DNA of 29,522 bases from a virus: the IMG/VR virus record IMGVR_UViG_3300034403_000134, positions 1-29,522 of that record. The stretch is one strand, 5' to 3'. The notes under the pieces are model-generated. The model saw only the letters and a list, made by a program, of their open reading frames with translations, had not been told where the DNA came from and did not search any database. Position numbers and translations under genes: made by a program. Below, piece after piece: positions 1 through 20,203 of this stretch. Each line of letters starts with the position of its first letter. Positions within the stretch are counted from its first letter, which is position 1.

Positions 1-379
1 GGTATAATACATGGTCAAATATATTACTAAAAATAAAATCAAAGGAAGCCTCCGTAAAAGGAATATCATGAACATCTCCTTCTATTACCAAAGGAGGGTC
101 ATCATTTAAGTCTATGCCTATAGTATCCAAGAGTCCTTGTTCCTGCAAAACCGCTACCTCCTGGCCTGTCCTAGCTCCCAGGCACAAGCCTTTGTTTAAA
201 GAAGCTAATAATTTTTTATGATTACTAAAAATCTGTCTAAACCCAGAACAATCTGAATCCCAGGAGCTACCTCCTTTTGACAGAGCTTTGTGTAGGTCGC
301 TTCCATGAGGAGCTTTTGATTTTTGATGAGACACATACTCTTCATAGCTGCTATATTCTTTAATTTCTATTTTATTCAT
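1..379 (-). CDS. SAM-dependent methyltransferase, partial (3' end beyond the left edge)
   Basis: I translated this frame by hand from the ATG at 379; it stays open to base 1, giving the first 126 residues. It resembles a class I Rossmann-fold methyltransferase: a glycine-rich motif I (LCLGARTGQEV, about residues 65-75), an acidic loop after strand 2 (GIDLNDD, about 88-94) and a strand-4 region (GDVHDIPF then SFDFIFSN, about 101-119). The start overlaps the stop of the fucosyltransferase-like gene upstream as ATGA, so it is the next gene of the sugar operon. By context it may methylate a sugar of the glycan or its lipid carrier, but the substrate is unknown because the C-terminal half is missing. 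DNA or protein methylation cannot be excluded. The methyltransferase call is fairly firm; the role is inference. Confidence 0.75.
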   Translation of the reverse strand, partial: MNKIEIKEYSSYEEYVSHQKSKAPHGSDLHKALSKGGSSWDSDCSGFRQIFSNHKKLLASLNKGLCLGARTGQEVAVLQEQGLLDTIGIDLNDDPPLVIEGDVHDIPFTEASFDFIFSNIFDHVLY

Positions 380-1206
380 GATAATATCCTTGATATTTCA
401 CAGAAGGTACTCTCTGGGTGGTATATTTGTATATCAGTTTTAGCTAATAAATACATATCAACTATAGAGTCTTGAGATTTCTCCTTTGATATTACAAAAT
501 TATAATCCCAAAGCTGTTCTTTGTCTTCTTTTGTAATATGTTCCCTGCCTTGTCTAGTAATTACACGATCTTTAAAGGTGCTACAAATTTCTTTTTCATA
601 CTCCAAATCGTCTGTAGACAAAAAGAATTTCGCAGAACCTCCATAGTCATGCATCTGATTTATATAGTAACCAACATCAACATTAAAATCAGTACCTCTA
701 GCATGCACACCTATAACATTATTATCCAAACCTAACTCAACTGTTTCCTTATCAATCTTCTCTTGTATGAGGGGGATGGGCCTTAAGCTTTTAATGAACT
801 CATGGCAAAACTCTCTATTAGTATTTGGGATGAAATTATTACAATAGAAAATAATGTTATCTTCATTATCGTTTGGGGTGTATGATCCCCTAGGAGACAT
901 GCTTCCTATGCCCTTCCCAGCTAAGTGTCTTAAATCATGACAACCATACTTTGACGATAAACGGTTTATACTACTAATCTCTGAATAAATCTTATATGAT
1001 TTTAAATTATCTAAGTCTTCGGAAGAGAGTTCTATAATGTCATTCTCAAATAACTCATTAAACTTTGCTAAGGACCCATTAGTAGTTTTGGAATCCCAAT
1101 ATTGGCATAAAGTCCTACCAGACTCCTTTGCTGCTGCGTATGCAGAGGAGAGCGGTCGCAATCTATTCCCTAATCCCCCTGTTGTATAGTTTATAACAGT
1201 TTTCAT
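376..1206 (-). CDS. Fucosyltransferase-like glycosyltransferase (NodZ / O-FucT type, GT-B)
   Basis: A 276-residue protein with the layout of GDP-fucose-dependent alpha-1,6 and O-fucosyltransferases. It has an N-terminal glycine loop GLGNRLRPLS (residues 11-20), the HxRgtD peptide (HARGTD, 168-173) that in this superfamily contacts the GDP-fucose phosphate, the FLSTDD segment (195-200) and a C-terminal DMYLLAKTD...STFCEIS region (250-272), which matches the 'D..LLA..D..i...SSFs..a' end motif. No signal peptide or membrane helix is visible, so it should act in the cytosol. It is the second-last visible gene of the sugar operon and has a 50-base gap in front of it, with a CTATAATA box. It could transfer another GDP-sugar; the superfamily call is good, the exact linkage is unknown. 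Confidence 0.75.
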   Translation of the reverse strand: MKTVINYTTGGLGNRLRPLSSAYAAAKESGRTLCQYWDSKTTNGSLAKFNELFENDIIELSSEDLDNLKSYKIYSEISSINRLSSKYGCHDLRHLAGKGIGSMSPRGSYTPNDNEDNIIFYCNNFIPNTNREFCHEFIKSLRPIPLIQEKIDKETVELGLDNNVIGVHARGTDFNVDVGYYINQMHDYGGSAKFFLSTDDLEYEKEICSTFKDRVITRQGREHITKEDKEQLWDYNFVISKEKSQDSIVDMYLLAKTDIQIYHPESTFCEISRILS

Positions 1207-1254
1207 TTAAAGAAGGATAATGACCTATCATCCACGGGTAAATTGCTCATGATA

Positions 1255-1262
1255 TATTATAG
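1255..1262 (-). promoter_or_regulatory. CTATAATA promoter box upstream of the fucosyltransferase-like gene
   Basis: On the minus strand this octamer overlaps the TAA stop of the preceding gene and ends 48 nt before the ATG at 1206. It matches the -10-like octamer found before gp32, dnaB and other genes in this window. No TTGACA-like -35 is evident. The role is inferred from recurrence. Confidence 0.45.
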
Positions 1263-1928
1263 TTGAGACTTCCACCTAACCTGTGGCAAATATGGATTTT
1301 GTTTTAGTCCATTGTTAGCATACCCCTCAAACATATGGGGGATAGTCCCCATTTTCCATAGGATGAAAGGTAAACCTATTTGATCTCTTGAGGAGTACTT
1401 GCAAGTTAACTCCCACCATTTTAAATTAAGTTCTTGCACATTTAGAGTGTTTTTACGGACAAATGCTGGTAACTCATAGAGCCCATGATTTTTTGGGAAT
1501 CCACAAGATTTGTAATAACTAAGTTGATTGGATATTAATGCGGGATCATCGTAACCTAATTTGATCACCTCACTAGCTTCCTCGAAAGCGCATACCCTAT
1601 GAGGGTGCTTAAACAACCCAATATCATTCTCGCCCAGGTTTGCACAAATCTTTAAAGGATCCATAATTGGTTCATGGGTGGGATCTACCCAAATCCAATA
1701 ATCATAATCAGGTAAGAATAAATGAGGAAGAATTTTATATATCTTTGCATCCCGTCTTCCTTTATACTTCTCATCTAAACTAAAAGGAACGGACTGTATT
1801 TGCTTCCAAACATTACAGTCATGGTGCCTGTCAACAAAAGCATAATAATCTGCTGAATCAAATGATACCGCAGGAGGATGAAGATTTTGGTTTGTTCCGA
1901 AAATAGAAGTAATTATAGCAATCTTCAT
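1257..1928 (-). CDS. TOD1/MUCI70-like (DUF616) putative glycosyltransferase
   Basis: A 223-residue protein that I place in the TOD1/MUCI70 (DUF616) glycosyltransferase-like family. Supporting landmarks in order: an N-terminal beta strand (MKIAIITSIFG), a basic stretch before RDAKIYKILPH, the acidic strand YDYWIWVDPTHEP (about residues 76-88, the likely metal/nucleotide site), GLFKHPHRVCAFEEA (about 104-118), a Y-K-S-C-G-F-P turn, and near the C-terminus a Trp-rich LNLKWWEL followed by SSRDQIGLPFILWK (about 177-192). That SxRDQ...W pattern is typical of the family. The plant members act in wall polysaccharide or mucilage synthesis. The start ATG overlaps the upstream stop as ATGA. The donor and acceptor sugars cannot be told from sequence. 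Confidence 0.65.
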   Translation of the reverse strand: MKIAIITSIFGTNQNLHPPAVSFDSADYYAFVDRHHDCNVWKQIQSVPFSLDEKYKGRRDAKIYKILPHLFLPDYDYWIWVDPTHEPIMDPLKICANLGENDIGLFKHPHRVCAFEEASEVIKLGYDDPALISNQLSYYKSCGFPKNHGLYELPAFVRKNTLNVQELNLKWWELTCKYSSRDQIGLPFILWKMGTIPHMFEGYANNGLKQNPYLPQVRWKSQL

Positions 1929-2620
1929 GAATATTTCTCCCTAGTATATGCAACCTCTTTATCAATGATATCTTGCGTAATTTGTGTTGTAGATATTTGC
2001 CCATCCCACAACCTATTAACAACTAAAATCCTCTCAATAATTTCAGGTAATCCATACTTATCAAACAGTCTCTTATAGTAATCTACATCCATTAACCAAG
2101 ACAAGCTCTCATCAAACTCCAACACATCTTTATTCCTAACGGCTAACACAGACGGAGAACTAATAGTGTTATTGCCTAAGTATATATTAGAATTATACTT
2201 AGGAATCATAGGATTAAAAAAGTCTACCTTGTCTGATGTATGCACAGTGCCAGTAACTAACCAATTAACCTGAGGTTTATTAAATCTTTCATAAATTACC
2301 TTCAAGCAATCTATATCGCAGAGGTAATCATCCTGAAATAGAATTTTGATCACTTCACCTATAGCACACTTTATAGCATTATTTATATTAGCTGAGGAGG
2401 ATCCTCTTCCACTCGTATTTCTAAAGTAGTTTATATCCATAGAACTCTCTTTTGCTACCGACTCACAAAAGTTCTTTATGTTATCATCCTTGCTGTGATC
2501 AGAAATAACTATCTCAAAATCCTTAAGCGTCTGCATCCTTAAACCTAGGAAGGATTGCTCTAAAAACTCAACACCCCTACCTCCCATCTCATAGGTAGGA
2601 ATACACACAGACACTTTCAT
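1925..2620 (-). CDS. Family 2 glycosyltransferase (GT-A)
   Basis: A 231-residue protein with a GT2 (GT-A fold) N-terminus: strand 1 VSVCIPTYEMG (residues 3-13), the EIVISDHSKDDN segment (36-47) that normally holds the first nucleotide-binding aspartate, and FQDDYLCD (about 94-101) as the DXD-like metal site. The C-terminal part holds a DVDYYKRL motif (about 183-190), typical of small phage and bacterial GT2 enzymes. It is predicted cytosolic, using a nucleotide sugar. It starts with ATG overlapping the stop of the GT10 gene (ATGA), and its own stop overlaps the next start, so it sits in the middle of a tightly coupled operon. The sugar is unknown. Confidence 0.8.
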   Translation of the reverse strand: MKVSVCIPTYEMGGRGVEFLEQSFLGLRMQTLKDFEIVISDHSKDDNIKNFCESVAKESSMDINYFRNTSGRGSSSANINNAIKCAIGEVIKILFQDDYLCDIDCLKVIYERFNKPQVNWLVTGTVHTSDKVDFFNPMIPKYNSNIYLGNNTISSPSVLAVRNKDVLEFDESLSWLMDVDYYKRLFDKYGLPEIIERILVVNRLWDGQISTTQITQDIIDKEVAYTREKYS

Positions 2621-3393
2621 CTAGCCTCCTCCAAGAATCTAGTAATCTCCTTATCGACTCTACCGTGGAAATTGCAGTAGTTTAAAGCTGTATTATAATT
2701 TTTCTCTATAACTTCTTCTAACTCTTTGTATTCATTAGGGACTAATGTGTTTAGTATTTTCTCTAAACCACTCAAGTTTTGGAACGAAAGCATTCCCTCC
2801 TCATCAAAGAACTCTCCCACATTGGGGGCTCCCCAATAAATAGGGACGGTTTTTGTTATAAAACAATCAATAAGTTTTTCTGTTATCCAATTAGGCGTAG
2901 ATTCATTCTCAATAATAATTGAATACTTAGCGTTTTTAAATATCAATTCTTTATTATCAATTCTTGGGGGAGTTCTAATACTTCTAACAGAAAAATTGTT
3001 TATCTCCTCTTTGTCCTTTAAATACTCAAAAACAGCTTGTCTGAGTTGGTGTCCTGGTGCCCAGGATTTATCGCTGGTTAAGAAGGATACCTCGTCTTCC
3101 TTGTTACTCCAACAATTAGAGGGACTATTTATCCAGCAATCTCCATAAACAAACTTCCTAGCATTGTCGCAATTATCTAAAATATCAGGATGCCAAGCTA
3201 AAATAAGATCAAAGGCATCATGATGAGCAATGGTTGTGGATCTAAGATCCTTAACAGATGGGGGCTCAAGCTGTATGAAAACCTTCAAATCTGCTGTAGC
3301 ATCAAGTTGTAAAAAATCAATGGCTATACTAACCTTCTGTTCTCTATCTTGAAAAGCATTAGAAACATCTTGGCTATACAGTATAGGCTTCAT
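2617..3393 (-). CDS. GT10 alpha-1,3/1,4-fucosyltransferase
   Basis: A 258-residue protein when started at the ATG at 3393, which overlaps the upstream stop as ATGA and has AAGGAG upstream. An in-frame GTG at 3405 would have no room for a ribosome binding site. The C-terminal half carries the GT10 donor-binding signature: NAKYSIIIENE (about 154-164), WITEKLIDCF (about 169-178) and TVPIYWGAPN (about 182-191). Known family members transfer fucose from GDP-fucose to GlcNAc or glucose in Lewis-type glycans. No membrane anchor is visible, in keeping with the bacterial enzymes. It lies directly after a GT11 fucosyltransferase, which suggests a multiply fucosylated product. The family call is strong; the acceptor is unknown. 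Confidence 0.88.
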   Translation of the reverse strand: MKPILYSQDVSNAFQDREQKVSIAIDFLQLDATADLKVFIQLEPPSVKDLRSTTIAHHDAFDLILAWHPDILDNCDNARKFVYGDCWINSPSNCWSNKEDEVSFLTSDKSWAPGHQLRQAVFEYLKDKEEINNFSVRSIRTPPRIDNKELIFKNAKYSIIIENESTPNWITEKLIDCFITKTVPIYWGAPNVGEFFDEEGMLSFQNLSGLEKILNTLVPNEYKELEEVIEKNYNTALNYCNFHGRVDKEITRFLEEAR

Positions 3394-4112
3394 ATGACTA
3401 ACCACTCCTTACAGTATACATCTTTAGTATTATAGCCCTTTTTAGCTGGCCCAAACCATTTTTTAGGGGCTACCACCTTCTTACCCTTGTTCCCCCCTAG
3501 CCAAGCACCCCACCAACTAAAAGAGCTATTAGCCATGATATGATGATCACATAAGCTCATTAGCTGTAAATCCTCAAGGGGGTCGGTGTTGAGGGATACT
3601 TCGCAGCTTTCTTTAGTAAAATTATCCTGGCACCATTGCTTATCATCGGAAAAGATAAGAAACCTGCAATCCTTAGGGAATTCATTCATAGCCCTCTTGT
3701 AGTAGTCGAGGGAACATACTGGGTGATGGTCAGAAAGATTTAGATAGTCTCCTCGTCTAACATGAACGCTAACAGTATTGGTACTAAGAGCTTCAACCTT
3801 TTTCTTAAAAGTAAATTCTTTTCTAACTTCATCAGCAAAATCAGCAAAATATTTTTCAGACTGAAAGTAGCCGTATAACTTCATGTCCTCATGCGGGATG
3901 GGCAGAGAAGAATATGAAAAACTCTCCTCAAAATAAATGGGCGAAGGGTTAGACTTTGTTTTAGCAGAAAGATTAAATACTTCGTGCAAGTTAGGGGTGT
4001 TTTCTGGGAAGGCGCAGGTTGTCCCTGATCGTAAACTTAATGCATATGTCGCAGCGTACTGAAACATTTGATTGCCTAGCCAACCAAAATAACCATCAAC
4101 AAAAGAAATCAT
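3390..4112 (-). CDS. GT11 alpha-1,2-fucosyltransferase
   Basis: A 240-residue protein with all the usual GT11 landmarks: N-terminal GWLGNQMFQYA (residues 10-20), the HVRRGDY peptide (117-123) that defines alpha-1,2-fucosyltransferases, FSDD (154-157) and the C-terminal ANSSFSWWGAWLG (194-206). Bacterial members (about 280-300 residues) transfer fucose from GDP-fucose to a galactose in O-antigens; this copy is compact but keeps every motif. It should be soluble and cytosolic. Its ATG overlaps the upstream stop (ATGA), as does its own stop with the GT10 gene. This is one of the firmest assignments in the sugar operon; only the acceptor is uncertain. Confidence 0.93.
   Translation of the reverse strand: MISFVDGYFGWLGNQMFQYAATYALSLRSGTTCAFPENTPNLHEVFNLSAKTKSNPSPIYFEESFSYSSLPIPHEDMKLYGYFQSEKYFADFADEVRKEFTFKKKVEALSTNTVSVHVRRGDYLNLSDHHPVCSLDYYKRAMNEFPKDCRFLIFSDDKQWCQDNFTKESCEVSLNTDPLEDLQLMSLCDHHIMANSSFSWWGAWLGGNKGKKVVAPKKWFGPAKKGYNTKDVYCKEWLVI
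3428..3435 (-). promoter_or_regulatory. CTATAATA box upstream of the GT10 gene
   Basis: The octamer lies inside the 3' end of the GT11 coding sequence on the minus strand, 34 nt before the GT10 ATG at 3393, with an AAGGAG ribosome binding site between them. The same spacing is seen at gp32. It is a candidate internal promoter of the sugar operon; being within codons, chance is a real alternative. Confidence 0.35.
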
Positions 4113-4831
4113 CTATCTAGTGAAGAGTAGGCGGGTAGGGATCTACCGTGCTGGGCGAGGAAGAAGTTAGAGGCAGCTTTAGGGCCTTTGTGTTCATTTA
4201 GTGGATTACCTTCATTGTAAACATAATTAACATCATCAATAAACAGCGTGTGGTCCTCTCCTGCCATCTCAATCATAGGAAGCATGAAAAAGATATCTCC
4301 TGCCGCACTAGCATAAGAACCCTCCCACTTTAAGTCTTCTTGTTTAATACTTCTCCAAAGAAAGGCTTTCCAAGTTCTTAAGTGGCTTGCAGTAAATACT
4401 GAGCCCCTTGTTTGGTTAGTGGGAACCCACTTAGCAAACCCTGGTCTACCGTCACTATATTTAAACTGTCCATAAGTAATCCAAACATCATGATCAGAAT
4501 AATACTTTACAACCCTTGAGAATACATCGTTATCGGGTAGCCAATCATCCCCATCAACCTCAACAATAATATCATCGTCATCAATGCTATAGTTACTCCT
4601 AATTACGCTGTCGTAATTTCCAGTTTGATATAGCTTCTCAGTATTATTAATAATTTTAAACCTATCATCATCTCCCACAGTCTCCTCTGCCACAGCTACG
4701 GTATTATCAGTTGATAAATCGTTTGTAATGTAGCAAATGAAATTCGAATACTTTTGAGATTTTATGCTTAACAAGCATTGTTTGATCCACTCTTCGCAAT
4801 TGTATGCTGTGGTAATAATAACTAACTTCAT
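4109..4831 (-). CDS. Family 2 glycosyltransferase (GT-A), possibly from a leaderless mRNA
   Basis: A 240-residue GT2 protein. Strand 1 is KLVIITTAYNCEEWI (residues 2-16), followed by ITNDLSTDNT (about 35-44) and the metal site VEVDGDDWLPD (about 90-100), a canonical D-x-D-D. Further on, a Trp-rich stretch around TWKAFLWRS and an AAGDIFFMLPMIE region (about 177-189) resemble the acceptor side of phage GT2 enzymes. It begins with ATG overlapping the stop of the preceding GT2 gene. A CTATAATA box ends only 4 nt before this ATG, so if that promoter is used the transcript would have no leader. Sugar and acceptor are unknown. Confidence 0.83.
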   Translation of the reverse strand: MKLVIITTAYNCEEWIKQCLLSIKSQKYSNFICYITNDLSTDNTVAVAEETVGDDDRFKIINNTEKLYQTGNYDSVIRSNYSIDDDDIIVEVDGDDWLPDNDVFSRVVKYYSDHDVWITYGQFKYSDGRPGFAKWVPTNQTRGSVFTASHLRTWKAFLWRSIKQEDLKWEGSYASAAGDIFFMLPMIEMAGEDHTLFIDDVNYVYNEGNPLNEHKGPKAASNFFLAQHGRSLPAYSSLDR

Positions 4832-5628
4832 GGTTTATTATAGATGGGGGCTCTATGTAATTCCTTTAGATCTTCTGATTGTTTTTCGTACTCAGCCATT
4901 AGTTTAGGGTCACCTTCTGGTTCGTAGTGACTACCGATAACTTCCTCAACTCTGAAGAAGGTTAGATCCTCTTCTGCCATTTTAATATACAACTCATGAT
5001 CAGCGACATAACCCCCCCGAATATTGTACATCCCTAAATCCAGGAAGCTCTGGTTCTTAATTAAGGGTGAGCATCCACAAAAATTCTCTTCAATTAATGC
5101 TTTTTTGGAATACTCAGGCCAGTTCTGATACCCTATAATATTCGCGTGTTCTTTATCATCTACTAATTTGAAGTTGCCGTAAAACAAATCAACATCAGGA
5201 AATTTGTCAGCGTAGGCTAAATAATTCCTTAAAGCACCTCGGGTTAACCTGTCTGAGATATTTACAGGACACACCCACCCATCTGCGTACATAATATGGT
5301 TAATATAGGCTGCACGATTTAAAGCTTGGAAGGGCGTTAAAGGTTCTTGGAACCACCTAAACAATATACCAGGGCGAGGTACATACTTTTTAATTTTTTC
5401 CCAAGTGCCATCTGTAGAGCCTAGGTCAACAATGGTGAGATCAAATCTTACCAAGGTTTGATTAGTTAGCGACTCAAAGAAACCATCAATAAAATCTATA
5501 TTATTATATGAGAACGCTATTAGCTGTACCTTTGCAGGAAGCAGGGTAGTTGCATTTTTCTCAGTCAGTCCTCTTTTAAAAGGGATGCCAGAAGCATCCT
5601 CCTCTATAGTATGATATTCTTCTTCCAT
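4828..5628 (-). CDS. Family 2 glycosyltransferase (GT-A)
   Basis: A 266-residue GT2 protein with an acidic N-terminal extension of about 30 residues before strand 1 (VQLIAFSYNNIDFI, about 33-46). LTIVDLGSTDGTW (about 63-75) is the classical nucleotide-binding segment. The usual DXD is degenerate: WVCPVNISDRLTRGA (about 118-132) occupies its place. YNIRGGYVADHELYIKMAEE (about 201-220) corresponds to the ED/D acceptor helix of GT2 enzymes. The first 24 bases overlap the preceding GT4 gene in another frame. Activity is likely, but the changed metal site leaves room for an altered or lost one. Confidence 0.75.
   Translation of the reverse strand: MEEEYHTIEEDASGIPFKRGLTEKNATTLLPAKVQLIAFSYNNIDFIDGFFESLTNQTLVRFDLTIVDLGSTDGTWEKIKKYVPRPGILFRWFQEPLTPFQALNRAAYINHIMYADGWVCPVNISDRLTRGALRNYLAYADKFPDVDLFYGNFKLVDDKEHANIIGYQNWPEYSKKALIEENFCGCSPLIKNQSFLDLGMYNIRGGYVADHELYIKMAEEDLTFFRVEEVIGSHYEPEGDPKLMAEYEKQSEDLKELHRAPIYNKP
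4836..4843 (-). promoter_or_regulatory. CTATAATA box 4 nt before a start codon
   Basis: The octamer sits in the last codons of the upstream GT2 gene and ends 4 nt before the ATG at 4831. Transcription starting about 7 nt past the box would begin at or next to the ATG, giving a leaderless mRNA. It lies within coding sequence, so it may be coincidental. Confidence 0.3.
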
Positions 5629-6413
5629 AGTTCTAAAATATCCTCTTTAGGTAAGTAACTTGCGTCCGTATCAGCGGTATCCAAACCCCTGTAACTTACA
5701 CCCGTCTTCTCACATTCAGCTTTAACAAAATTAAAGGTTTCTCTTTGTGATGAGTGATACACAGCATCAATAGAATCATACATTTTCTGCTTATCATCTA
5801 CATGACCCTGGTAATGAATGTTATCAGGGTACTTAGCTAATAGCGGCTCTAAATATAATTTAGCATATGCAGGATCATTAAGAAGACCAAACAAGTAGAT
5901 CTTTTCCCACCCATCCCATAAAGCTCGTTGGATGGAAACATGAGCCTGTTTATGTGAATCTAAACTTCCAATGATGCCGCAAGCCTTGGTCCCCAAGGGG
6001 CTAGGTTTAAGATCGCTAACAATATTAGGGATTACAAAATTAGGGTGATTAACTGATTGCCACTTCTTTTGTGTGTTGCTTACATAATGAATGGCATCGT
6101 AACCTGTTAGATCTATATCCTTTAGTGGGAACATATTAGTCTCATGACAAGATAGAATATGTAAGCAGTCGTTAGCTTTTAATTCCTCCGCATTAACTCT
6201 AACATAATGAGATATAATAGTATCGCCTTGTTCAACTTCTATTTCCTTTTCGGTGCCTGATTTACATTTATCTAAGTGCCAATCATGCGGTCCATACATG
6301 GTGCAATCTATACCGTTTTCATTAAACAGATTACATAGATTTATATGCGCGATAGTTGATCCCCCTGGGTTAGACCAACCTGTAACAATTTTTATTTTTC
6401 CTGTTCTTGACAT
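5604..6413 (-). CDS. GT4-like glycosyltransferase (GT-B)
   Basis: A 269-residue GT-B type protein, short for family 4 (usually 350 or more). The N-terminal loop IVTGWSNPGGSTIAHINL (about residues 9-26) matches the GT4 glycine-rich acceptor loop. IHYVSNTQKKWQ and FVIPNIV (about 107-133) mark the crossover into the C-terminal domain, which has GIIGSLDSHKQ, IYLFGLLND and VYHSSQRETFNFVKAE (about 215-230). This last piece corresponds to the ExxxfG..aEa nucleotide-sugar motif, with the final glycine replaced by Asn-Phe. Its start lies inside the end of the neighbouring GT4 gene (22-base overlap). The sugar is unknown. Confidence 0.7.
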   Translation of the reverse strand: MSRTGKIKIVTGWSNPGGSTIAHINLCNLFNENGIDCTMYGPHDWHLDKCKSGTEKEIEVEQGDTIISHYVRVNAEELKANDCLHILSCHETNMFPLKDIDLTGYDAIHYVSNTQKKWQSVNHPNFVIPNIVSDLKPSPLGTKACGIIGSLDSHKQAHVSIQRALWDGWEKIYLFGLLNDPAYAKLYLEPLLAKYPDNIHYQGHVDDKQKMYDSIDAVYHSSQRETFNFVKAECEKTGVSYRGLDTADTDASYLPKEDILELWKKNIIL

Positions 6414-7588
6414 ACTATTTTCTCCCGTGCTTCAAAGCAAACATCATACAACCCTATCCTACTACCCGCAACTTTGTTAAGATCAAATAATTCCTCGGTA
6501 ATAGAATGCAGGTTTTCACCCAATTCCATGCGGTGTTTTTTGTCCTTGGCTAACCTCGTCAAGACCTTCACCCACTCAGACTTGGGTGCATCTGGGTCAA
6601 GTAAATAGCCTGTTTCCCCGTTAATAATAGTATCGCTGTAACAACCCACATTGGAAGCTACGAGGGGGACTTTATACCTACCACACTCAGCAACTTTGAT
6701 ATCTGATTTACTATCATTAAAGTTATTCATCTGTAGTGGAGCTAGAGCAACATCCATCCTAGAAAAGAAGTACCCATAGTCTTCTGCTCCAACTGCGTTG
6801 TAAATTTGCCAATTCTGTGAACCTTTAAACCCTGATAGAAGAGTATTTTTGTAGTTCTTCCATACATCTAATTGCCATGCCTCTTTTTTATCGTCTGGTG
6901 CTACAGGTGGGCATCCATAAAAATCCCATTGGACTCTCTCTCGTCCAGCCTTGCAATTAACTAGGTGGGGGATACCAGCAAACTCTTTTACATCTTCTTC
7001 GTGATGAATCCCTCCTGCCCAACCAAACCTGCACACATTTTTACGGGGAGATGGCTGCTTAACACCATTCCAACTAGGCATGAGATAATCAATAGCATTT
7101 TTAACAACTGCAAGAGTTCCTGCTCCCATAAAAGGAACTACTCTGTCTGCAAACTTCTTCTGAGTTACAGTAACTAAATCAGAATTGTTATAAATAAACT
7201 TAGTTAGCTCCTCAAGACCCTTATCCTTATACACTTGTTTAAGTCGGTGTCCATCATAAAGATCAGTAAGAAGATCGTCTGTATCATAATGAACAAACTT
7301 ACCAAACTCCTTAGCCTTCCCTACGATCCTAGCTGTATACTGACCACCAAAGTTTGAGATGTTCTGAGTCATGACGATATCAGCCCAATGCATATCTTCA
7401 AACTTCCAGTTCTGCTTCCACCTTCCTGCGTTCTGGCCTGTTTCTTCTAACCCTAAAGGGTTCTTATTGAACCTAACCTCCACGCGATCTGGGTAGCGTT
7501 CCTGAAGCTTTTTAAATGGTCCCCAGGCTCTGTAATAAGCACACCCACCGTCATTGGCAGGACAAACGAGTATCTTGTATTTTCTCAT
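6392..7588 (-). CDS. GT4-like glycosyltransferase (first gene of the sugar operon)
   Basis: A 398-residue protein when started at the ATG at 7588. A longer frame from 7627 would translate through a terminator-like hairpin and adds nothing family-like. The N-terminus KILVCPANDGGCAYYRAWGP (after the Met) has the GG-x-AyyR pattern seen in phage GT4-like proteins. ADIVMTQNIS and VHYDTDDLL follow. The C-terminal domain has RFGWAGGIHHEEDV, DVALAPLQMNNFNDSKSDIK and a conserved AECG...PLVASNVG...INGETGYLLD region, typical of the GT4 donor site. No ribosome binding site is evident in front of the ATG, which follows directly on the T-run of the hairpin. It opens the sugar operon. Confidence 0.78.
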   Translation of the reverse strand: MRKYKILVCPANDGGCAYYRAWGPFKKLQERYPDRVEVRFNKNPLGLEETGQNAGRWKQNWKFEDMHWADIVMTQNISNFGGQYTARIVGKAKEFGKFVHYDTDDLLTDLYDGHRLKQVYKDKGLEELTKFIYNNSDLVTVTQKKFADRVVPFMGAGTLAVVKNAIDYLMPSWNGVKQPSPRKNVCRFGWAGGIHHEEDVKEFAGIPHLVNCKAGRERVQWDFYGCPPVAPDDKKEAWQLDVWKNYKNTLLSGFKGSQNWQIYNAVGAEDYGYFFSRMDVALAPLQMNNFNDSKSDIKVAECGRYKVPLVASNVGCYSDTIINGETGYLLDPDAPKSEWVKVLTRLAKDKKHRMELGENLHSITEELFDLNKVAGSRIGLYDVCFEAREKIVCQEQEK

Positions 7589-7591
7589 AAT

Positions 7592-7625
7592 AAAAAAGGG
7601 GGAGGGAACATTAAGCTCCCTCCCC
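7592..7625 (-). terminator. Rho-independent terminator between the lipoprotein gene and the sugar operon
   Basis: On the minus strand a 9-bp perfect GC-rich stem (GGGGAGGGA with TCCCTCCCC, 7625-7617 and 7607-7599) closes a 9-nt loop and is followed by C and six T residues. It lies 22 bases past the stop of the lipoprotein gene and touches the start of the GT4 gene. A CTATAATA box overlaps its upstream edge. Confidence 0.85.
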
Positions 7626-7626
7626 A

Positions 7627-7634
7627 TATTATAG
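7627..7634 (-). promoter_or_regulatory. CTATAATA promoter box for the sugar operon
   Basis: This intergenic octamer on the minus strand ends 38 nt before the GT4 ATG at 7588, the same distance as at gp32. Initiation about 7 nt downstream would fall inside the left arm of the hairpin at 7592-7625, so new transcripts would escape the terminator that stops transcripts arriving from upstream. Confidence 0.5.
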
Positions 7635-7647
7635 TCCTAAGGTGTTG

Positions 7648-8196
7648 TCAAGCTTCTTCTTCTTCTTCCCATTCTTCCTCTTCAACAAACGCTGCTTCCG
7701 AAGTAGCAGACGAGTGTGACATACCAAGTGCTGAAGCGATGCTGCCAACAGCCCCACCAAAGTCCACATTCTTATCCATAGGCACGATGGCTTTAATAGC
7801 CTTACCATAGTGCTTACGCTTGCGTGAGCTAAAGAGAGTAACAATACCCTCCCATGCAGCTAGACCAGGGAGGAAAGCAGTAGCGATCCCGAAACCAGCG
7901 TCAATGATACCGCCCAAGGCGTTTCCATCAATCTCACCCCCAGCAGGGACAAAGGCAGCATTATCTTTAAGTTGATCTTTGTTTGCCAGGACAAGAGTAG
8001 TTCCTTCAGGGAACTTTTCTTTGATCGAATCAGGAAGTTGGTCGAGGGGGATGATAGCTCCCATTTCGCCTTCCACAAGTTGATCCGTTGTCGTAAATAC
8101 AGTACCTTCTCCGAAGAATCCTTCAAGAGCGGCGCAGGAACCCAAGCCCATGCCAAGTGCTGTAGTAAGTAAGAGGGTTAGAATAATATTTTTCAT
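7648..8196 (-). CDS. Predicted phage lipoprotein with hydrophobic glycine-rich segment
   Basis: A 182-residue protein I do not recognise. It starts with Lys at position 3, a hydrophobic stretch to about residue 18 and an LGSC lipobox (Cys21), so it should be a secreted lipoprotein. A short linker follows, then a globular-looking region (about 25-85), a glycine-rich hydrophobic stretch with the look of a membrane-inserted segment (about 90-120, GGIIDAGFGIATAFLPG), a basic patch (SSRKRKHYGK) and a very acidic tail of about ten Glu residues with one Trp. It follows gp32 by 6 bases and is closed by a strong terminator. Phage lipoproteins are known as o-spanins and superinfection-exclusion proteins; the internal hydrophobic segment argues against a simple spanin. 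Function is unassigned. Confidence 0.7.
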   Translation of the reverse strand: MKNIILTLLLTTALGMGLGSCAALEGFFGEGTVFTTTDQLVEGEMGAIIPLDQLPDSIKEKFPEGTTLVLANKDQLKDNAAFVPAGGEIDGNALGGIIDAGFGIATAFLPGLAAWEGIVTLFSSRKRKHYGKAIKAIVPMDKNVDFGGAVGSIASALGMSHSSATSEAAFVEEEEWEEEEEA

Positions 8197-8202
8197 AGTT
8201 AA

Positions 8203-8895
8203 TTAATTTTGCAGTCGGTCGAGAAGATTACCATCAGAGTTTTCAGCAACTACATTCATAGCAGCAGTTTTAACTTCATCGTAATCCTCAAGTTTAACCA
8301 GTTCGTGAACCATATGTAGGGAATCCATGTATGCAGCAATTTCTGCTTGGGTTCCCGTAGGTTCGGATTTAGGACGAGGCTGTGACTGGTCATACTTAGG
8401 CCATTGTCCTTCCATTGTTTTGATGATTTTAAAATCAAAACCATCTTGAAGATCGGTGATATCACCAAAGTCTTCATCCAACATAGCAGCAACAATCTTT
8501 TTAAAGAGGATTACGCCAACGGAAAGAATCTTAACCTCACCACTATCACGATCAAGAATGTTCATGTAGTAACGAGCGCGAGGCTTAATTTGCCTCGCCA
8601 GATCCTTATCGGAATCTTTATCAGTCTTCCAAAGACCGAAGTAAGTATCACAAAGGGGACAAGCCTCTCCATGCATCTTTCGACAATGGAAGTTCTTAGC
8701 CATACCATCGGAACCAACAATACGATGCAATTTAGTTTCTGCATAGAATTCGGTTTCATCGTCCTTCGCTGGAAGGATGCGAACAAGGGTTGTCCCTTCT
8801 TTGATTTGGAGGTAGTGGGAAGATCCTCCCCCTCCTTGTGTAGATTTGCTGAGTTCAGCGTGTTTTGCCCGAAGGGCGTTAAGATCAATAGCCAT
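8203..8895 (-). CDS. 32: Single-stranded DNA-binding protein, gp32-like
   Basis: A 230-residue homologue of the T4 gp32 family, which coats single-stranded DNA during replication and recombination. A basic N-terminal helix (LNALRAKHAELSK) is followed by a Gly/Ser linker. The OB-like core begins with HYLQIKEGTTLVRILPAK (about 27-44). A putative zinc knuckle, HCRKMHGEACPLC (70-82: Cys71, His75, Cys79, Cys82), sits where T4 gp32 binds zinc but with much tighter spacing. The protein is shorter than T4 gp32 (301 residues), and the acidic C-terminal tail that T4 uses to contact partner proteins is reduced. AAGGAG precedes the ATG, and a CTATAATA box lies 39 nt upstream. The lipoprotein gene follows after 6 bases. 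Confidence 0.85.
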   Translation of the reverse strand: MAIDLNALRAKHAELSKSTQGGGGSSHYLQIKEGTTLVRILPAKDDETEFYAETKLHRIVGSDGMAKNFHCRKMHGEACPLCDTYFGLWKTDKDSDKDLARQIKPRARYYMNILDRDSGEVKILSVGVILFKKIVAAMLDEDFGDITDLQDGFDFKIIKTMEGQWPKYDQSQPRPKSEPTGTQAEIAAYMDSLHMVHELVKLEDYDEVKTAAMNVVAENSDGNLLDRLQN

Positions 8896-15447: not shown

Positions 15448-16426
15448 TTTTTAATAAGCTATATCCTAGCATGATTTGTTCTTTCGTTAAACTAGTTTGT
15501 ACCGAATTAACATAATCCTCTAAGATAACTTCATTTATAGAAAATAAATCTCTAGAGGGAGAGTAATCGCTACTGTCTTCAAGAAGTGCATCACTAGTGG
15601 GATTCCATTTAATATCAATAGAAGCTACATCAATGCCTTCCAAGGATAGTTCGGTGTCATCTCTATGCCTTAGAATACGCAATAGAGTGAAGTAATTTTT
15701 ATCATTTAAAAACTCAATAAGGTCTGGGTCAGTCTGTATGCTCTCGTACTTTAAAAGAACATGGCGAGGGCCGTGAAGGACTTTATGGTAAGATACTTTA
15801 TCATCATCAATTATTGCATAGTAATTGTCTTTACCACATTCTCCAAAGTTAGTTGTGTATGGTGTTCCTAGAACCGTAACATTATCTTTCTGAACATATC
15901 GGTGAATATGCCCCAACAAACTAGGAGTCCTAAAATCAGACAACCGCAAAGAGAAATCAGCATCACCAGCGGAATTAAGGCACCCACGATAACCGAAGTG
16001 ACCAAATACCATAAACCCTTCAGGGACTTCATCCAAAGCTTTCTTAATAGTTTCTTGGTTTTCATAATGCGGAATGTACACCCTCCTTGTAGCAGGGTCT
16101 TTTGTCGTGTGTTTTATAATAGTAACATCAGTAAAACTACTCTCAAAAACAGACAATGCAGTAATACCATCATCAGCTTTAGTTTCGCTATCATGATTTC
16201 CCCGTAGGACTGTGACCGAAGAACGAGAGCTTACATAGTCTAGTATTTGTTTAAAACCTAATAACTCAGAGGGAGAAGGTCGCCTATTCATAAAAACATC
16301 ACCCATTATAATGATGTTCTCGGGTTCAGCGTCAGCACAAATTTTGATTATGCACTTCACCTGTTCATCTAAGAAGCCGTATAGCTTATTGCTTAGGTGT
16401 AAATCTGTTATTACTAATGTTTTCAT
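15437..16426 (-). CDS. 47: SbcD/Mre11-like recombination nuclease (gp47)
   Basis: A 329-residue calcineurin-type metallophosphoesterase, the nuclease partner of gp46. All five metal motifs are present: DLH (8-10), GDVF (42-45), GNHD (76-79), GHFG (about 141-144) and GHIH (about 172-175). The size matches T4 gp47 (339 residues). The C-terminal part (VILEDYVNSVQTSLTKEQIMLGYSLL) would be the capping and gp46-binding region. Its ATG overlaps the stop of the polymerase C-terminal fragment (ATGA), so the nuclease pair continues the polymerase operon without a break. Confidence 0.93.
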   Translation of the reverse strand: MKTLVITDLHLSNKLYGFLDEQVKCIIKICADAEPENIIIMGDVFMNRRPSPSELLGFKQILDYVSSRSSVTVLRGNHDSETKADDGITALSVFESSFTDVTIIKHTTKDPATRRVYIPHYENQETIKKALDEVPEGFMVFGHFGYRGCLNSAGDADFSLRLSDFRTPSLLGHIHRYVQKDNVTVLGTPYTTNFGECGKDNYYAIIDDDKVSYHKVLHGPRHVLLKYESIQTDPDLIEFLNDKNYFTLLRILRHRDDTELSLEGIDVASIDIKWNPTSDALLEDSSDYSPSRDLFSINEVILEDYVNSVQTSLTKEQIMLGYSLLKNED

Positions 16427-17484
16427 ACAAAAACCTCTTCACCATCTCCGAAGGACTTGCCGACAAGAATTTCAATCGCCAAAGGAACATCTAAATGAAG
16501 GTTAAATTGTTCTTTGATATATGGATAGTTAACTAACTCATCATGAATAAGCTTACATAGCTCTTTAACCTCTTCGTCTGGTGCGATTAGTTCAATACTA
16601 TCATGGACAGTAGCAACAATACGCGATTTCATACCTAGGTCTTTCATTCTCTTATGCAAACCAACAAGAGAACCTAAAAGTATATCGGATGCAGCACTTT
16701 GAATAGTAAAGTTAAGACCCTGGCGTAAAGATCGGCTTCGTACTTGCTTATCATTACTGTACACATCTGGGAGATTACGCCTCCTGCCAAATATAGTGTA
16801 AGCATAACCGTTAGTTCTAATAAAATCATTTATGAATTCCATAAAAGAGAATACAGCAGGATAAACCCTTTTGTAACTAGCGATGATATTCTCCGCTCTC
16901 TTAAGTGGGATTGCCATAGTCTCTGCTAAATTGAATGCGCCTCCACCATAAACAATAAGGAAGGATACCGTCTTTGCAATTTGCCGCTCTTGTTTTGAGA
17001 TATTTTCTTTATTAAAAAGGAGACGAGCAGTATAGGTGTGTAGATCAACACCCTTCTGAAAGGCATTCTGCATATTACCGTCCTTCGCAACATGAGCTAG
17101 AACGCGCAATTCCATAGCAGAGTAGTCTACGGTAATAAAAGAATGCCCCTTTGGTGCAATAAAGAAACTCCTAATATTATGTTTTGTTTCGCGTGGAAGC
17201 GTGTGGAACGAAACGCCCATACTCTTACTGGCAGTATATGCAGCGCAGGACAATCTACCCGTTGCGGTCCCATCGAACCTGTAATCAACATATACTTTGT
17301 TCTCTTCATTATATTCCATGGCCTGCTTAGTGCCTTGGATATATGTTTTCTGCAACTTCTCAGATTTTCGTAAATCTAATAACCCTTTAAGAAAAGCACT
17401 AGAAGATACTAAATCTTCAGTAGTCTTCGCAGCAATTACAGATTTACTAATCTTCTTCCCTTCGTCCCGATAGCCCCACTTCAT
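16423..17484 (-). CDS. DNA polymerase family A, fragment 3: thumb, palm and fingers
   Basis: A 353-residue protein carrying only the polymerase catalytic part of a family A enzyme. The thumb segment FLKGLLDLRKSEKLQKTYI is at 31-49, TATGRLSC at 73-80, motif A TVDYSAMELRVLAH at 118-131 (catalytic Asp120), motif B RQIAKTVSFLIVYGGG at 167-182 (Arg167, Lys171, Phe175, Tyr179) and motif C TVHDS at 292-296 (Asp295). The residue equivalent to E. coli Phe762 is Phe. It lacks the 5' part of the thumb and all proofreading parts, which lie in two upstream genes. The ATG overlaps the stop of the oxygenase gene (ATGA). All catalytic residues are intact, so it should be active, probably as a complex with the other two pieces. 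Confidence 0.93.
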   Translation of the reverse strand: MKWGYRDEGKKISKSVIAAKTTEDLVSSSAFLKGLLDLRKSEKLQKTYIQGTKQAMEYNEENKVYVDYRFDGTATGRLSCAAYTASKSMGVSFHTLPRETKHNIRSFFIAPKGHSFITVDYSAMELRVLAHVAKDGNMQNAFQKGVDLHTYTARLLFNKENISKQERQIAKTVSFLIVYGGGAFNLAETMAIPLKRAENIIASYKRVYPAVFSFMEFINDFIRTNGYAYTIFGRRRNLPDVYSNDKQVRSRSLRQGLNFTIQSAASDILLGSLVGLHKRMKDLGMKSRIVATVHDSIELIAPDEEVKELCKLIHDELVNYPYIKEQFNLHLDVPLAIEILVGKSFGDGEEVFV

Positions 17485-18083
17485 TGTTGTATATTAAAGG
17501 AAAAAAGTTGGTTTATTCTCTCATGGTCTGTGGTCGTATTTATAGAATGGAACAACCTACCACTATACAGTAGAAGCCTATTGTATTTATAATCAATTTT
17601 GTCAAGCTCTCGCCAATTAGATTTGGGGCGCACACATAACGGATCACTTGTAGGTCCGTTAATATAGCAAGAAGAAGTAAACGATTTTTGTGTACTTTTC
17701 TCTTCCCAAAACGATGTTCCGAACTCAGGAGGACACTCAGGACTTAGCATTACTACTCCTACATAGTCAGTAGAATCATGATGAACATGATTAGGAGTTA
17801 GTTTTATTTTTGGGGATATTTTATAAAAAGTCCCATTAAAAGAAGTACCATCAAGCACAATAGACTCCTCTATTTTCCTTTTACGGGTCCAACAATCGTC
17901 AACAGCAATTTTTAATTTAAGAATATCCTCAAAGAGTGGTATAAACTCGTTAGTAATAAAACTTGAGCTTCTAGTGAAATGTCGGCTATCTACTATAGAA
18001 TACTTAGTAGATAATGCCATCTCACGAACCTTATCAGGGTTCTCATAAAAATCATCTACAACTACTATATCACGATAATTCAT
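17481..18083 (-). CDS. 2OG-Fe(II) oxygenase-like protein inserted between polymerase fragments 2 and 3
   Basis: A 200-residue protein when started at the ATG at 18083, preceded by GAGG at good spacing; a TTG at 18107 is less likely. The first part VVVDDFYENPDKVREMAL (about 7-24) is the usual opening of DUF6445-like 2-oxoglutarate oxygenases. The double-stranded beta-helix follows, with HVHHDSTDYVGVVMLSP (99-115; iron ligands His101 and Asp103), the distal His in LYSGRLFHSI (His179) and the 2OG-binding Arg in ERINQLFSF (Arg189). All core residues are present. The substrate is unknown; family members oxidise proteins or small molecules. It overlaps the polymerase fragment 2 stop by 14 bases and fragment 3 by 4 bases, an exact fit in the gap. 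Confidence 0.75.
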   Translation of the reverse strand: MNYRDIVVVDDFYENPDKVREMALSTKYSIVDSRHFTRSSSFITNEFIPLFEDILKLKIAVDDCWTRKRKIEESIVLDGTSFNGTFYKISPKIKLTPNHVHHDSTDYVGVVMLSPECPPEFGTSFWEEKSTQKSFTSSCYINGPTSDPLCVRPKSNWRELDKIDYKYNRLLLYSGRLFHSINTTTDHERINQLFSFNIQQ

Positions 18084-18558
18084 TTCTGCCTCGTAGTTCT
18101 TCTTCAATATGCTCTAGTAAGATTTTTAATGTAGGTGCCGACACCGAGGGTGCGCCTTTTGAAGTACGATCAGGGGGGTAGAGTCCGAAACCCTCCTCAT
18201 TAGTATAGAGGATTTCAGATAAATTCATGGTAGAAGATAGATTATCTTTAGGCATCACCTCCTTATAGGCATACAGATAATCCTCAGTTTCTATGTTTGC
18301 CGTCTTTAGAATCTTACCTACAGATTCTAGAGTGGTTGGGCAAACCTCTAACCCCGCAAATTCAATCTCTGAGAAAATAGTATTAGCTGGAGCTAGAACT
18401 TTCTCAAAAAATGGAACTAAGCCAAGATCTGAGAACTTATCGAAAATAAGATTGAAAAGCTTTAAGGTAAAATAAGTGTCAGCAGCGTTGCCTTCGCAAC
18501 AATCAGACAACTCCATATTAGCCCAATCGAATTTTTTAGGATTTGTAACAGTTAACAT
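18070..18558 (-). CDS. DNA polymerase family A, fragment 2: exonuclease motif III and start of thumb
   Basis: A 162-residue middle piece of the polymerase. The segment CCEGNAADTYFTLKLF (20-35) corresponds to exonuclease motif III (Y-x3-D), with Asp27 as the metal ligand; the motif's Tyr is replaced by Gly23. VLAPANTIFSEIEFAGLEV (about 54-72) matches the 'ELPL...l..mE..Gv.vd' link between exonuclease and thumb. The end, TSKGAPSVSAPTLKILLEH (about 134-152), matches the thumb 'T..GapSt....L..L' motif. It stops just where fragment 3 picks up. Its ATG overlaps a TAA that would end the full-length oxygenase frame upstream (TAATG), with GAGAGG as ribosome binding site. Alone it can have no catalytic activity. 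Confidence 0.85.
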   Translation of the reverse strand: MLTVTNPKKFDWANMELSDCCEGNAADTYFTLKLFNLIFDKFSDLGLVPFFEKVLAPANTIFSEIEFAGLEVCPTTLESVGKILKTANIETEDYLYAYKEVMPKDNLSSTMNLSEILYTNEEGFGLYPPDRTSKGAPSVSAPTLKILLEHIEEELRGRNELS

Positions 18559-18635
18559 TATTTAAACCTCTCATCTCCTAACCACCATTGAACTAAACTA
18601 GTTCTCACCGCACGGGCAAGTCTCCTTTTTTCACT
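18558..18635 (-). other. Untranslated or recoded C-terminal end of the oxygenase gene
   Basis: These 78 bases continue the oxygenase frame after its in-frame TGA: 25 sense codons and a TAA that overlaps the next ATG as TAATG. The part AVRTSLVQWWLGD carries the Arg and hydrophobic strand expected at the end of a P4Hc domain. A second frame over the same stretch (from about 18645) reads VAEVKKGDLPVR, also like this family. It is either a small insertion or frameshift scar, a recoding site, or a sequencing error. Confidence 0.6.
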
Positions 18636-19193
18636 TCAGCTACCTCCAGGCTTGGGTTTAACCTCGGTAACGATGTGTGGCGTATACGATGGGAAAATAA
18701 CAGCCTGACCTTGCTTTCTTTTAATGGTATTATAACGACTGCCCAAAGTTAATAACATTAAGTCGCCTCCATCATAGGATAACCCGTCTGATAATTCAAC
18801 GGAGATACTTAGTTTTCTTCTAATGGATGGTCCACTATCCCCCATATCATGATGCCAAGAATAGTGTTCCCCACAACCATACTGCGTAAACTGTACAGCT
18901 TCGGAATGATTTACATCAAAATGATACTTATTAGTATTAACAGTCAGGATCGCATCTTTTATCCTATCTTGAACCCACCATAAATTCTCATCATCCCTAG
19001 GAAGCCAACCAACCTTAGACTTTCGGACATCTCCAGTTGCGGCTCTACCACCCGATAAGTTCCCAGGCCCCATTTTTAGCTTTTTCTCGCAATACTTCTG
19101 TATTTTAACACATTCCTCAGGGGTGAACAAATCAAGTACGACATAATCGCAGATGTTCTGATCATCCAAGTCTTTTTCTTCTTGTTCTTCCAT
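18636..19193 (-). CDS. Prolyl-4-hydroxylase-type 2OG-Fe(II) oxygenase, ending early, inserted between polymerase fragments 1 and 2
   Basis: A 185-residue protein with a P4Hc/PiuC-like fold: YVVLDLFTPEECVKI (17-31) as entry strand, then FTQYGCGEHYSWHHDMGD (102-119; iron ligands His114 and Asp116), RRKLSISVELSD and the YDGGDLML turn (140-147), and the distal His in FPSYTPHIVTEV (His173). A TGA at 18638-18636 stops the frame before the last core strand, which holds the 2OG-binding Arg. The same frame then continues open for 25 codons to a TAA at 18560-18558 and includes AVRTSLVQWWLGDERF, the expected final strand. The full gene would be about 211 residues. The 5' end follows polymerase fragment 1 as TAATG. 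Whether the short form works is doubtful. Confidence 0.75.
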   Translation of the reverse strand: MEEQEEKDLDDQNICDYVVLDLFTPEECVKIQKYCEKKLKMGPGNLSGGRAATGDVRKSKVGWLPRDDENLWWVQDRIKDAILTVNTNKYHFDVNHSEAVQFTQYGCGEHYSWHHDMGDSGPSIRRKLSISVELSDGLSYDGGDLMLLTLGSRYNTIKRKQGQAVIFPSYTPHIVTEVKPKPGGS

Positions 19194-20203
19194 TACAACG
19201 ACTCCAACTCAGTAGGGAAGTACAGCTTCACTAAATCCATAAGACCCTTCGGTAAATTTTCATTGATGATGTGGTGCATGATTTTTGTATCCCAAACATT
19301 GGTAGGTATGATATTATAGCGATAGAGGAACTTCAAATCAAATTTTGCATTGTGAAAAACTTTCTTATTTTTAGAATTTACTAGAATCCCTCTAATGTAC
19401 ATCCAAAACTTATCCTGATGGTCTAATCCCTTAAAGGGTGAGTCCTTATGATCACAAGGAACAACCCAATTCCCATCCTGGGTTGAGAAGGCTATAGTTT
19501 GTATTAAATCTGTCTTAAAATTTAAACCTGTAGTCTCAATGTCACAGGCAACGGTATCATCCGTATGTTTTAACCTTTCAAATAATGCCTCAACTTTATC
19601 AAGGCTCATTAATGTTTGGTAGGAGAAGTTCCCTTCACTCTTTTTGCCAAGTACATATTTTTCAATTGCATTATTGATATCTGTCTGGAACAGGATTGAG
19701 TGACGAGGCTCCTTAATAACGGAATAAGGATGGAAAATAGGGACAACGACACAAGTGTGCCCATTAATACTGGTGAAATCAAATGCTTTTCCTCTTTTAC
19801 TAGTAATACCACTCTTCCTAATCAACATCTTCATGGCTAGATTGCCACAAGTGAATACTACTTTAGGTTTTACCTTATCAATAGTAGCTTCTAGATGCTG
19901 CCTACAGATCTTCATGTCTGCGGGAAACATATCAGCTTCTTTAACGGTAGGACATTTAACAGAAGCGGCACAAACAAACGGTAACGATGCTGCCCTCTTA
20001 ATCGTATTATACTCAGGTGAGGAAAATGGCTTAGTCTCTCCGTACTTATATTTTAAGGAATCGGAAAGAAAAAGGATATCGGAAGTCCCCAACTTTTCAT
20101 AATCTAGTACTGTATGGCATGGTTTGCTCTTCTTTAATACAGAGCATCCTTTACATAACTCGTTGATATCACTGGAGTTATACAGTTTATCTAATTCAAA
20201 CAT
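19193..20203 (-). CDS. DNA polymerase family A, fragment 1: UDG-like domain plus exonuclease motifs I and II
   Basis: A 336-residue protein with two parts. Residues 1-180 resemble family 4 uracil-DNA glycosylases: CKGC (17-20), then Cys84 and Cys100, spaced like the four Fe-S ligands (C-x2-C ... C-x15-C), and PIFHPYSV (155-162) at the position of the conserved 'HP' motif. The usual GEAPG catalytic motif is not kept (FLSDSLKYKYGETKPF). Residues 215-336 begin a DnaQ-like 3'-5' exonuclease: motif I VACDIETTGL (218-227; Asp221, Glu223) and motif II FHNAKFDLKFL (283-293; Asp289), then VWDTKIMHHIINENLPKGLMDLVKLYF. It stops before motif III, which is in fragment 2. The ATG is 14 bp from the divergent gp55-like ATG and has no room for a ribosome binding site. 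Confidence 0.88.
   Translation of the reverse strand: MFELDKLYNSSDINELCKGCSVLKKSKPCHTVLDYEKLGTSDILFLSDSLKYKYGETKPFSSPEYNTIKRAASLPFVCAASVKCPTVKEADMFPADMKICRQHLEATIDKVKPKVVFTCGNLAMKMLIRKSGITSKRGKAFDFTSINGHTCVVVPIFHPYSVIKEPRHSILFQTDINNAIEKYVLGKKSEGNFSYQTLMSLDKVEALFERLKHTDDTVACDIETTGLNFKTDLIQTIAFSTQDGNWVVPCDHKDSPFKGLDHQDKFWMYIRGILVNSKNKKVFHNAKFDLKFLYRYNIIPTNVWDTKIMHHIINENLPKGLMDLVKLYFPTELESL

Follow-up and report, generated by a model that had tools for sequence, protein, structure and literature searches.

What would a tailed phage do with three different kinds of fucosyltransferase? The question is posed by one end of IMG/VR record IMGVR_UViG_3300034403_000134, a viral fragment of 29,522 bases (the window, meaning the whole stretch analyzed), where genes for a GT11, a GT10 and a NodZ/FUT8-type enzyme lie within positions 376-4112 of an operon of glycosyltransferases, the glycan island. 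The window is a piece of a lytic T4-like marine phage, with genes of T4-like type assigned by Pfam (gp32, a DnaB-type helicase, ribonucleotide reductase, a family A polymerase and a tail sheath), and it stops inside the methyltransferase gene after NodZ, still within the island. Our answer is held with more reserve than confidence: an uncultured, apparently non-cyanobacterial T4-like lineage would build in the cytoplasm, from its own GDP-fucose, a branched virion oligosaccharide fucosylated at three positions, methylated and, in relatives, amidated. This counterpart of the chlorovirus capsid glycan would depend on a conserved starter transferase and on an exchangeable, horizontally moving GT11-GT10-GT2-TOD1-AsnB-NodZ module common to cyanophages and bacteria. 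By its sequences, the gene set varies on a type of cluster for which the cyanophage S-SCSM1 is a published example; what is new here is that the module recurs, that an uncultured lineage links it to fcl, and that export genes are lacking.

Three families of fucosyltransferase in one operon

Each of the fucosyltransferase types that the first-pass annotation had placed at 376-4112 scores above its Pfam cut-off, with the coordinates exact and the quoted motifs present, and the idea that one family had been counted three times was rejected on three separate Pfam models and motifs. Of the genes listed as their companions, the TOD1/MUCI70-like gene and one GT2 lie inside this span, and the other GT2 genes, a GT4, a weak GT4-like gene and the truncated methyltransferase lie outside it.

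Compared with solved structures, the single sequence of the NodZ-like protein matches weakly (a FUT8 chain at E 2e-4), and a 16-sequence profile reaches solved NodZ (2hhc) at 2.2e-12. Its AlphaFold2 model (pLDDT 80.8, pTM 0.82) superposes on NodZ 3siw with Z 17.8 and a root-mean-square deviation of 3.2 over 230 aligned residues at 23% identity, and on FUT8 with Z up to 16.6, against Z 9.7 for the best non-fucosyltransferase row. Fold and profile thus tie it to rhizobial NodZ, but the identity is that same 23% over 230 residues and no chitin-oligomer pathway was seen. Residues H168, R170, T172 and D173 are invariant across the 16 sequences; the motif reads HARGTD in the window, HLRATD in most cyanophage homologues and HVRRTD in FUT8. 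The window's protein thus has no arginine at the second R of HxRR, a residue that is important in FUT8; its donor is likely to be GDP-fucose. The GT10 enzyme matches the Helicobacter pylori alpha-1,3-fucosyltransferase 2nzw (2.1e-10) in an alignment that covers the EN...TEK segment, a motif kept in all nine of the homologues listed, and GT11 has only chance lysozyme matches among solved structures. These tests place the three proteins in the GT11, GT10 and NodZ/FUT8-type families, and fucose transfer from GDP-fucose is predicted for each. The enzyme set fits the synthesis of the multiply fucosylated, probably methylated oligosaccharide that had been proposed for it.

The genes also look maintained. 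Adjacent genes across 1257-7627 overlap by 4-25 bases, with a 50-base gap preceding NodZ, and pN/pS values of 0.18-0.31 against the relative L002 (GT11 0.21, GT10 0.31, GT2c 0.18, the last being partial) indicate purifying selection on these three genes, on which ground a view of the set as decaying cargo was rejected.

Relatives of the island and the supply of GDP-fucose

Relatives were followed through GT4a, the GT4 gene at the head of the island. GT4a, which stands beside gp32, is frequent in uncultured marine contigs, with a relative encoded by 113 of 119 pattern stretches (the best 80 kept), and this anchor of the window's lineage is missing from phage isolates, barring three weak hits when 50,697 records of phages were searched. 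The 138 GT4a loci reduce to 109 non-redundant ones, 86 of which have downstream genes, and what follows GT4a differs strongly from one relative to the next. L002 and L003 retain GT11-GT10 (L002 also the start of GT2c), 76-82% identical to the window's genes, L062 retains GT11-GT10-GT2c-TOD1-AsnB, and L035 carries GT11-GT10-GT2c-TOD1-AsnB-NodZ, followed by a radical SAM protein, a DegT-type aminotransferase and fcl shortly before the contig ends. Two contigs, the window and L035, thus show the full set of GT10, GT11 and NodZ. Two complete islands (L078/L185 and L171/L175) close with fcl-gmd-MazG, with RecA further on, so that their glycan block has gp32 at one border and MazG and RecA at the other.

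Since the window is truncated inside its island, the search for GDP-fucose synthesis genes that the first-pass annotation had recommended could be carried through in relatives, where it was positive. Among 42 of the 109 non-redundant loci, chosen for a visible downstream stretch of 8 kb or more and leaving the window aside, fcl is present in 5/5 islands with a window-type GT11 and in 4/37 others (one-sided Fisher 1.5e-4), window-type being defined as at least 330 bits, a threshold set after the table had been seen and with kinship among islands uncorrected. In four of these five, gmd stands beside fcl; in the fifth, where no gmd is seen, the contig stops shortly after fcl. When any GT11 is counted, fcl is found in 5/8 islands versus 4/34 (p 0.006). 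The tie of gmd by itself is looser: it accompanies window-type GT11 in 4/5 versus 11/37 (p 0.047). One fcl, in L037, was assigned by hand (its profile label is GME, yet it matches the S-SCSM1 fcl at 3.3e-116) and touches the 7.5-kb row only. Family scans of two relatives speak for both assignments: with the NCBIfam models, gmd scores 392-394 bits, where the curated cut-off is 415, and fcl 227-239 bits, where it is 500 and the fcl of S-SCSM1 itself reaches 455.

Other sugar genes occur in these islands. Ahead of fcl-gmd, L185:229-3647 and L175 encode 3-dehydroquinate-synthase-like, class III aminotransferase, MptE-like and SIS-domain proteins, which suggests that these phages make additional sugars or cyclitols of unusual kinds. 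At L035:12586-14288 and L184:1430-3358, the islands also encode a DegT-type aminotransferase and radical SAM proteins, of which one has a SPASM and another a B12-binding domain.

A module recurring across phage groups

A single-sequence pattern scan of viral contigs for the NodZ-like protein confirmed no close relative, and the Pfam NodZ model found 0/50 records, a result of low sensitivity and not of absence because the NodZ of S-SCSM1 was missed too. Homologues were therefore sought by local phmmer and hmmsearch in place of the Pfam model, and a search with a three-sequence NodZ alignment yielded 20 viral loci. The order GT11-GT2c-(one gene)-TOD1-AsnB-...-NodZ recurs in 12 of the 20, representing at most 11 independent phages because the NodZ proteins of L213 and L214 are identical; a thirteenth locus, L199, is L035's contig, with the module order plus GT10, and the remaining seven are truncated by the contig end. 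Identity between NodZ proteins is 37-41% between cyanophage subgroups and 22-28% between cyanophages and the window or L035.

Bacterial relatives of NodZ occupy 13 loci. Margulisbacteria carry TOD1-AsnB-NodZ, and in Desulfobacteria NodZ lies within a long multidomain protein (methyltransferase, NodZ, DUF268, GT4) beside AsnB. In one such protein of 1303 residues from Desulfobacteraceae (L219:4203-8114), the NodZ domain is 37% identical to that of the window over 280 columns (E 9e-60). The methyltransferase next to NodZ in the window was considered as the counterpart of the one fused to Desulfobacteraceae NodZ, and this was ruled out by BLASTP (E 0.39).

Precedents among viruses

The first-pass annotation had held that a tailed-phage equivalent of the chlorovirus system would be new, an expectation that does not survive the literature. 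The published genome of S-SCSM1 contains gmd (ORF121), GDP-L-fucose synthase (ORF122), an O-fucosyltransferase (ORF113), an alpha-1,2-fucosyltransferase of GT11 type (ORF126) and NodZ (ORF134) (PMC9602691), and in mycobacteriophages the subunits of capsid and tail tube have been seen to bear glycans (PMC12619734). The accessible text of PMC9602691 holds no statement of a recurring gene order or of a virion target, and our search of the open-access literature turned up no further paper dealing with virions and the fucosyltransferases of phages.

Like the window, S-SCSM1 (MK867354.2) is a T4-like tailed phage with GT11, GT2, TOD1/MUCI70-like, methyltransferase and NodZ genes clustered, and its cluster also holds AsnB, gmd and fcl; unlike the window, it has no GT10 match. 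It infects a cyanobacterium, with Synechococcus WH7803 as laboratory host, carries psbA and encodes a NodZ that is 25% identical to the window's. Synechococcus phage S-T4 (MH412654.1), also T4-like, has two GT11 genes and one GT10 in one cluster but no gmd match and no NodZ found, with heptose-type and GDP-mannose-epimerase-like sugar genes instead. The chlorovirus PBCV-1 shares virus-encoded gmd and fucose synthase, several glycosyltransferases, and fucose and a methylated sugar in a branched glycan; it is, however, a eukaryotic algal virus whose glycan has been demonstrated on the capsid protein, whereas the window is known from genes alone (PMC7019647). Mycobacteriophages are tailed phages that bear glycans on their own capsid and tail (Freeman et al. 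2023, via PMC12619734), although the description of their glycosylation available in PMC12619734 mentions no fucosyltransferase set.

The window's lineage differs from the cyanophages in its apparent host. Neither psbA nor psbD occurs in 17 records of the lineage (fragments, three of which, L009, L018 and L021, were picked by tail sheath with the presence of GT4a unchecked), compared with 4/11 viral contigs with a cyanophage-type module and both isolates. The host is therefore probably not a cyanobacterium, within the limits that fragments set to such a tally.

Where the glycan goes

Chances seem to us evenly balanced that the glycan is made in the cytoplasm and placed on the phage's own virion proteins, a gene-based reading reached by elimination and by analogy with chloroviruses and mycobacteriophages. 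We lean to this target on two indirect grounds: the islands hold no multi-pass membrane proteins, and known hydroxymethylating families gave no match above cut-off in 50 records. Of the 701 downstream open reading frames (ORFs) in the 86 non-redundant islands, 683 have no predicted membrane segment, 17 have one and one has two, in a plain hydropathy scan whose controls gave six segments for psbD and only three for psbA. The psbA product has five helices. As no ORF reaches three segments (0/701), there is no candidate flippase, polymerase, lipid-carrier transferase or Gtr membrane protein. The S-SCSM1 cluster likewise has no multi-pass membrane protein, and the 336 ORFs that it and the NodZ loci comprise have two segments at most; in the extension loci, 3/298 ORFs have at least three segments, all of 138-179 aa.

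This absence bears most directly on the suggestion, which we consider unlikely though it deserves serious attention, that the operon remodels the host surface, lipopolysaccharide (LPS) or exopolysaccharide, for example to block superinfection or grazing, the phage contributing the transferases and the host the lipid carrier, flippase and ligase. Membrane proteins are part of phage systems for serotype conversion, and neither the islands (one ORF with two segments, none above) nor the S-SCSM1 cluster has a multi-pass one; a remodeled surface would also be of little evident benefit in a short lytic infection. A host flippase or ligase could nevertheless export the product, and the authors of S-SCSM1 class its homologous fucose genes as host cell wall synthesis and modification (PMC9602691). 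LPS gene clusters have long been known from large cyanophages (PMC3037559), GT25 (LPS) family genes are present in L035 and S-SCSM1, and bacterial NodZ homologues adjoin AsnB or TOD1 genes (L219, L220, L222, L231).

That the glycan sits on modified bases of the phage DNA, shielding it from restriction, has a precedent in a Shewanella phage whose cytosine bears a pentose (PMC12838424) and would suit both the position of the island, which adjoins gp32 in the replication region, and a gene annotated as DNA beta-glucosyltransferase in the S-SCSM1 cluster. We judge it distinctly improbable, given that a base cap would need less than three fucosyltransferases and methyltransferases. Moreover, the thymidylate-synthase/hydroxymethylase family PF00303, which includes T4 dCMP hydroxymethylase, is found in 0/50 records and Tet_JBP in 0/50 above cut-off (two sub-threshold), in a set that includes the 228,827-base S-SCSM1 record and otherwise consists mostly of fragments. 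No DNA glucosyltransferase is among the six weak solved-structure matches of GT4a, nor among the weak relatives, if any, of GT4b. Still less credible to us is the idea that the genes are passing cargo, left by genome filling or a recent transfer and without a role of their own in this phage. It would account for the strongly variable gene content between relatives, and 'stuffer DNA' has been raised for cyanophage LPS genes (PMC3037559), but purifying selection, overlapping genes and intact motifs are hard to reconcile with it, as is a module order preserved down to ~25% NodZ identity.

Several points weigh against placing a phage-made fucosylated glycan on the virion, in addition to the retrospective GT11 threshold, the simplicity of the hydropathy scan, the possibility of export by the host and the cell wall assignment in S-SCSM1. 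The phage is known here from genes alone, and the island does not adjoin structural genes. Neither gmd nor fcl lies within the 29.5 kb of the window, which ends inside the island; gmd by itself has no significant tie to GT11 of any kind (4/8 versus 11/34, p 0.29, with the same 8-kb cut); and the window has no AsnB between TOD1 and NodZ. Three islands with GT11 and GT10 (L097, L116 and L130) are without fcl, and since L097 and L116 hold a GDP-mannose-epimerase-like gene in its place, the GT10 and GT11 members of fcl-less islands may use another GDP-sugar.

Gene order and other features of the window

The operon and its gp32 border are set out in the table below, in which the ORF at 7648-8196 is the sole conserved envelope-protein candidate between gp32 and the glycan island.

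Genes of the glycan island and its upstream border, with window coordinates
Feature	Position	Strand	Evidence
Methyltransf_11 methyltransferase, truncated by contig end, 126 aa visible	2..379	-	Pfam E 2.4e-5, 25.3 bits, cut-off 21.2
NodZ/FUT8-type (GT23-like) fucosyltransferase, HARGTD	376..1206	-	Pfam NodZ PF05830 E 1.1e-8, 34.8 bits, cut-off 28.3
TOD1/MUCI70-like glycosyltransferase	1257..1928	-	TOD1_MUCI70 E 3.8e-14; S-SCSM1 homologue E 1.9e-63
GT2 glycosyltransferase GT2c, syntenic in module	1925..2620	-	Pfam E 8.1e-16
GT10 fucosyltransferase, EN...TEK, GTG start, short N-terminal domain	2617..3405	-	PF00852 E 3e-6, 27.5 bits, cut-off 23.9
GT11 fucosyltransferase, HVRRGDY	3390..4112	-	PF01531 E 7e-36, 124.4 bits, cut-off 23.9; phrog_2644 9.1e-69
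GT2 glycosyltransferase GT2b	4109..4831	-	Pfam E 5.3e-20
GT2 glycosyltransferase GT2a	4828..5628	-	Pfam E 2.1e-7
GT4-like protein GT4b, common in lineage	5604..6413	-	weak Pfam E 0.057, below cut-off; profile from 52 homologues
GT4 glycosyltransferase GT4a, opens the island and is its most conserved gene, beside gp32	6392..7627	-	Pfam E 1.4e-7
Small conserved flank ORF, lipoprotein-like N terminus, between gp32 and island	7648..8196	-	without Pfam family; kept beside gp32
gp32-like single-stranded DNA-binding protein, conserved upstream island border	8203..8895	-	PF08804 E 4.9e-16

Beyond the island, the family A DNA polymerase is split over 16423-20203 into three: the exonuclease portion at 19193-20203, which also matches the UDG family, an ORF in the middle at 18070-18558, and the domain for polymerization itself at 16423-17484. 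Between these pieces lie genes for a 2OG-Fe(II) oxygenase (18636-19193) and a DUF6445 protein (17481-18107). Two plus-strand ORFs, 20218-20562 and 21228-21758, stand out in a window that is mostly minus-strand, and the first resembles a small sigma-type regulator by eye.

A model for the glycan and its meaning

Our model starts from what the sequences show: the gene families and the overlaps in their order, the signal of purifying selection, a module that recurs and keeps company with fcl, and islands that lack multi-pass membrane proteins. From these we infer donors, linkages, order of addition, virion target and benefit. Relatives would make GDP-L-fucose from GDP-mannose via gmd and fcl, whose genes close their islands and, for the window, are predicted within about 10 kb past position 1, outside the contig. 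GT4a would then start the oligosaccharide or attach it to its acceptor, and the variable set of GT2 and GT4 enzymes would extend it. The TOD1/MUCI70-like enzyme would add a further sugar, which the neighboring AsnB-like amidotransferase of most relatives may turn into an amide. MUCI70 is a rhamnogalacturonan galacturonosyltransferase of family GT116, and our guess is that the phage enzyme transfers a uronic acid that is amidated by the adjacent AsnB. GT11, GT10 and NodZ would each add fucose, at three different positions, before the terminal methyltransferase may cap the glycan. All steps would be cytoplasmic, the product going onto the phage's own virion proteins, in which case the variable part of the island would alter the outer face of the particle.

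The old question of host surface versus virion as the target of such clusters would become directly testable, because a cultured phage that bears the module exists in S-SCSM1, 45 of whose virion proteins have been recorded by mass spectrometry (PMC9602691). If the model is true, it would explain why export machinery is absent from the 'LPS gene clusters' of marine phages in the islands examined, and marine tailed phages would own an exchangeable glycan factory for altering the particle's face, a counterpart to the capsid glycan of chloroviruses but one that works with bacterial enzymes along a cytoplasmic route.

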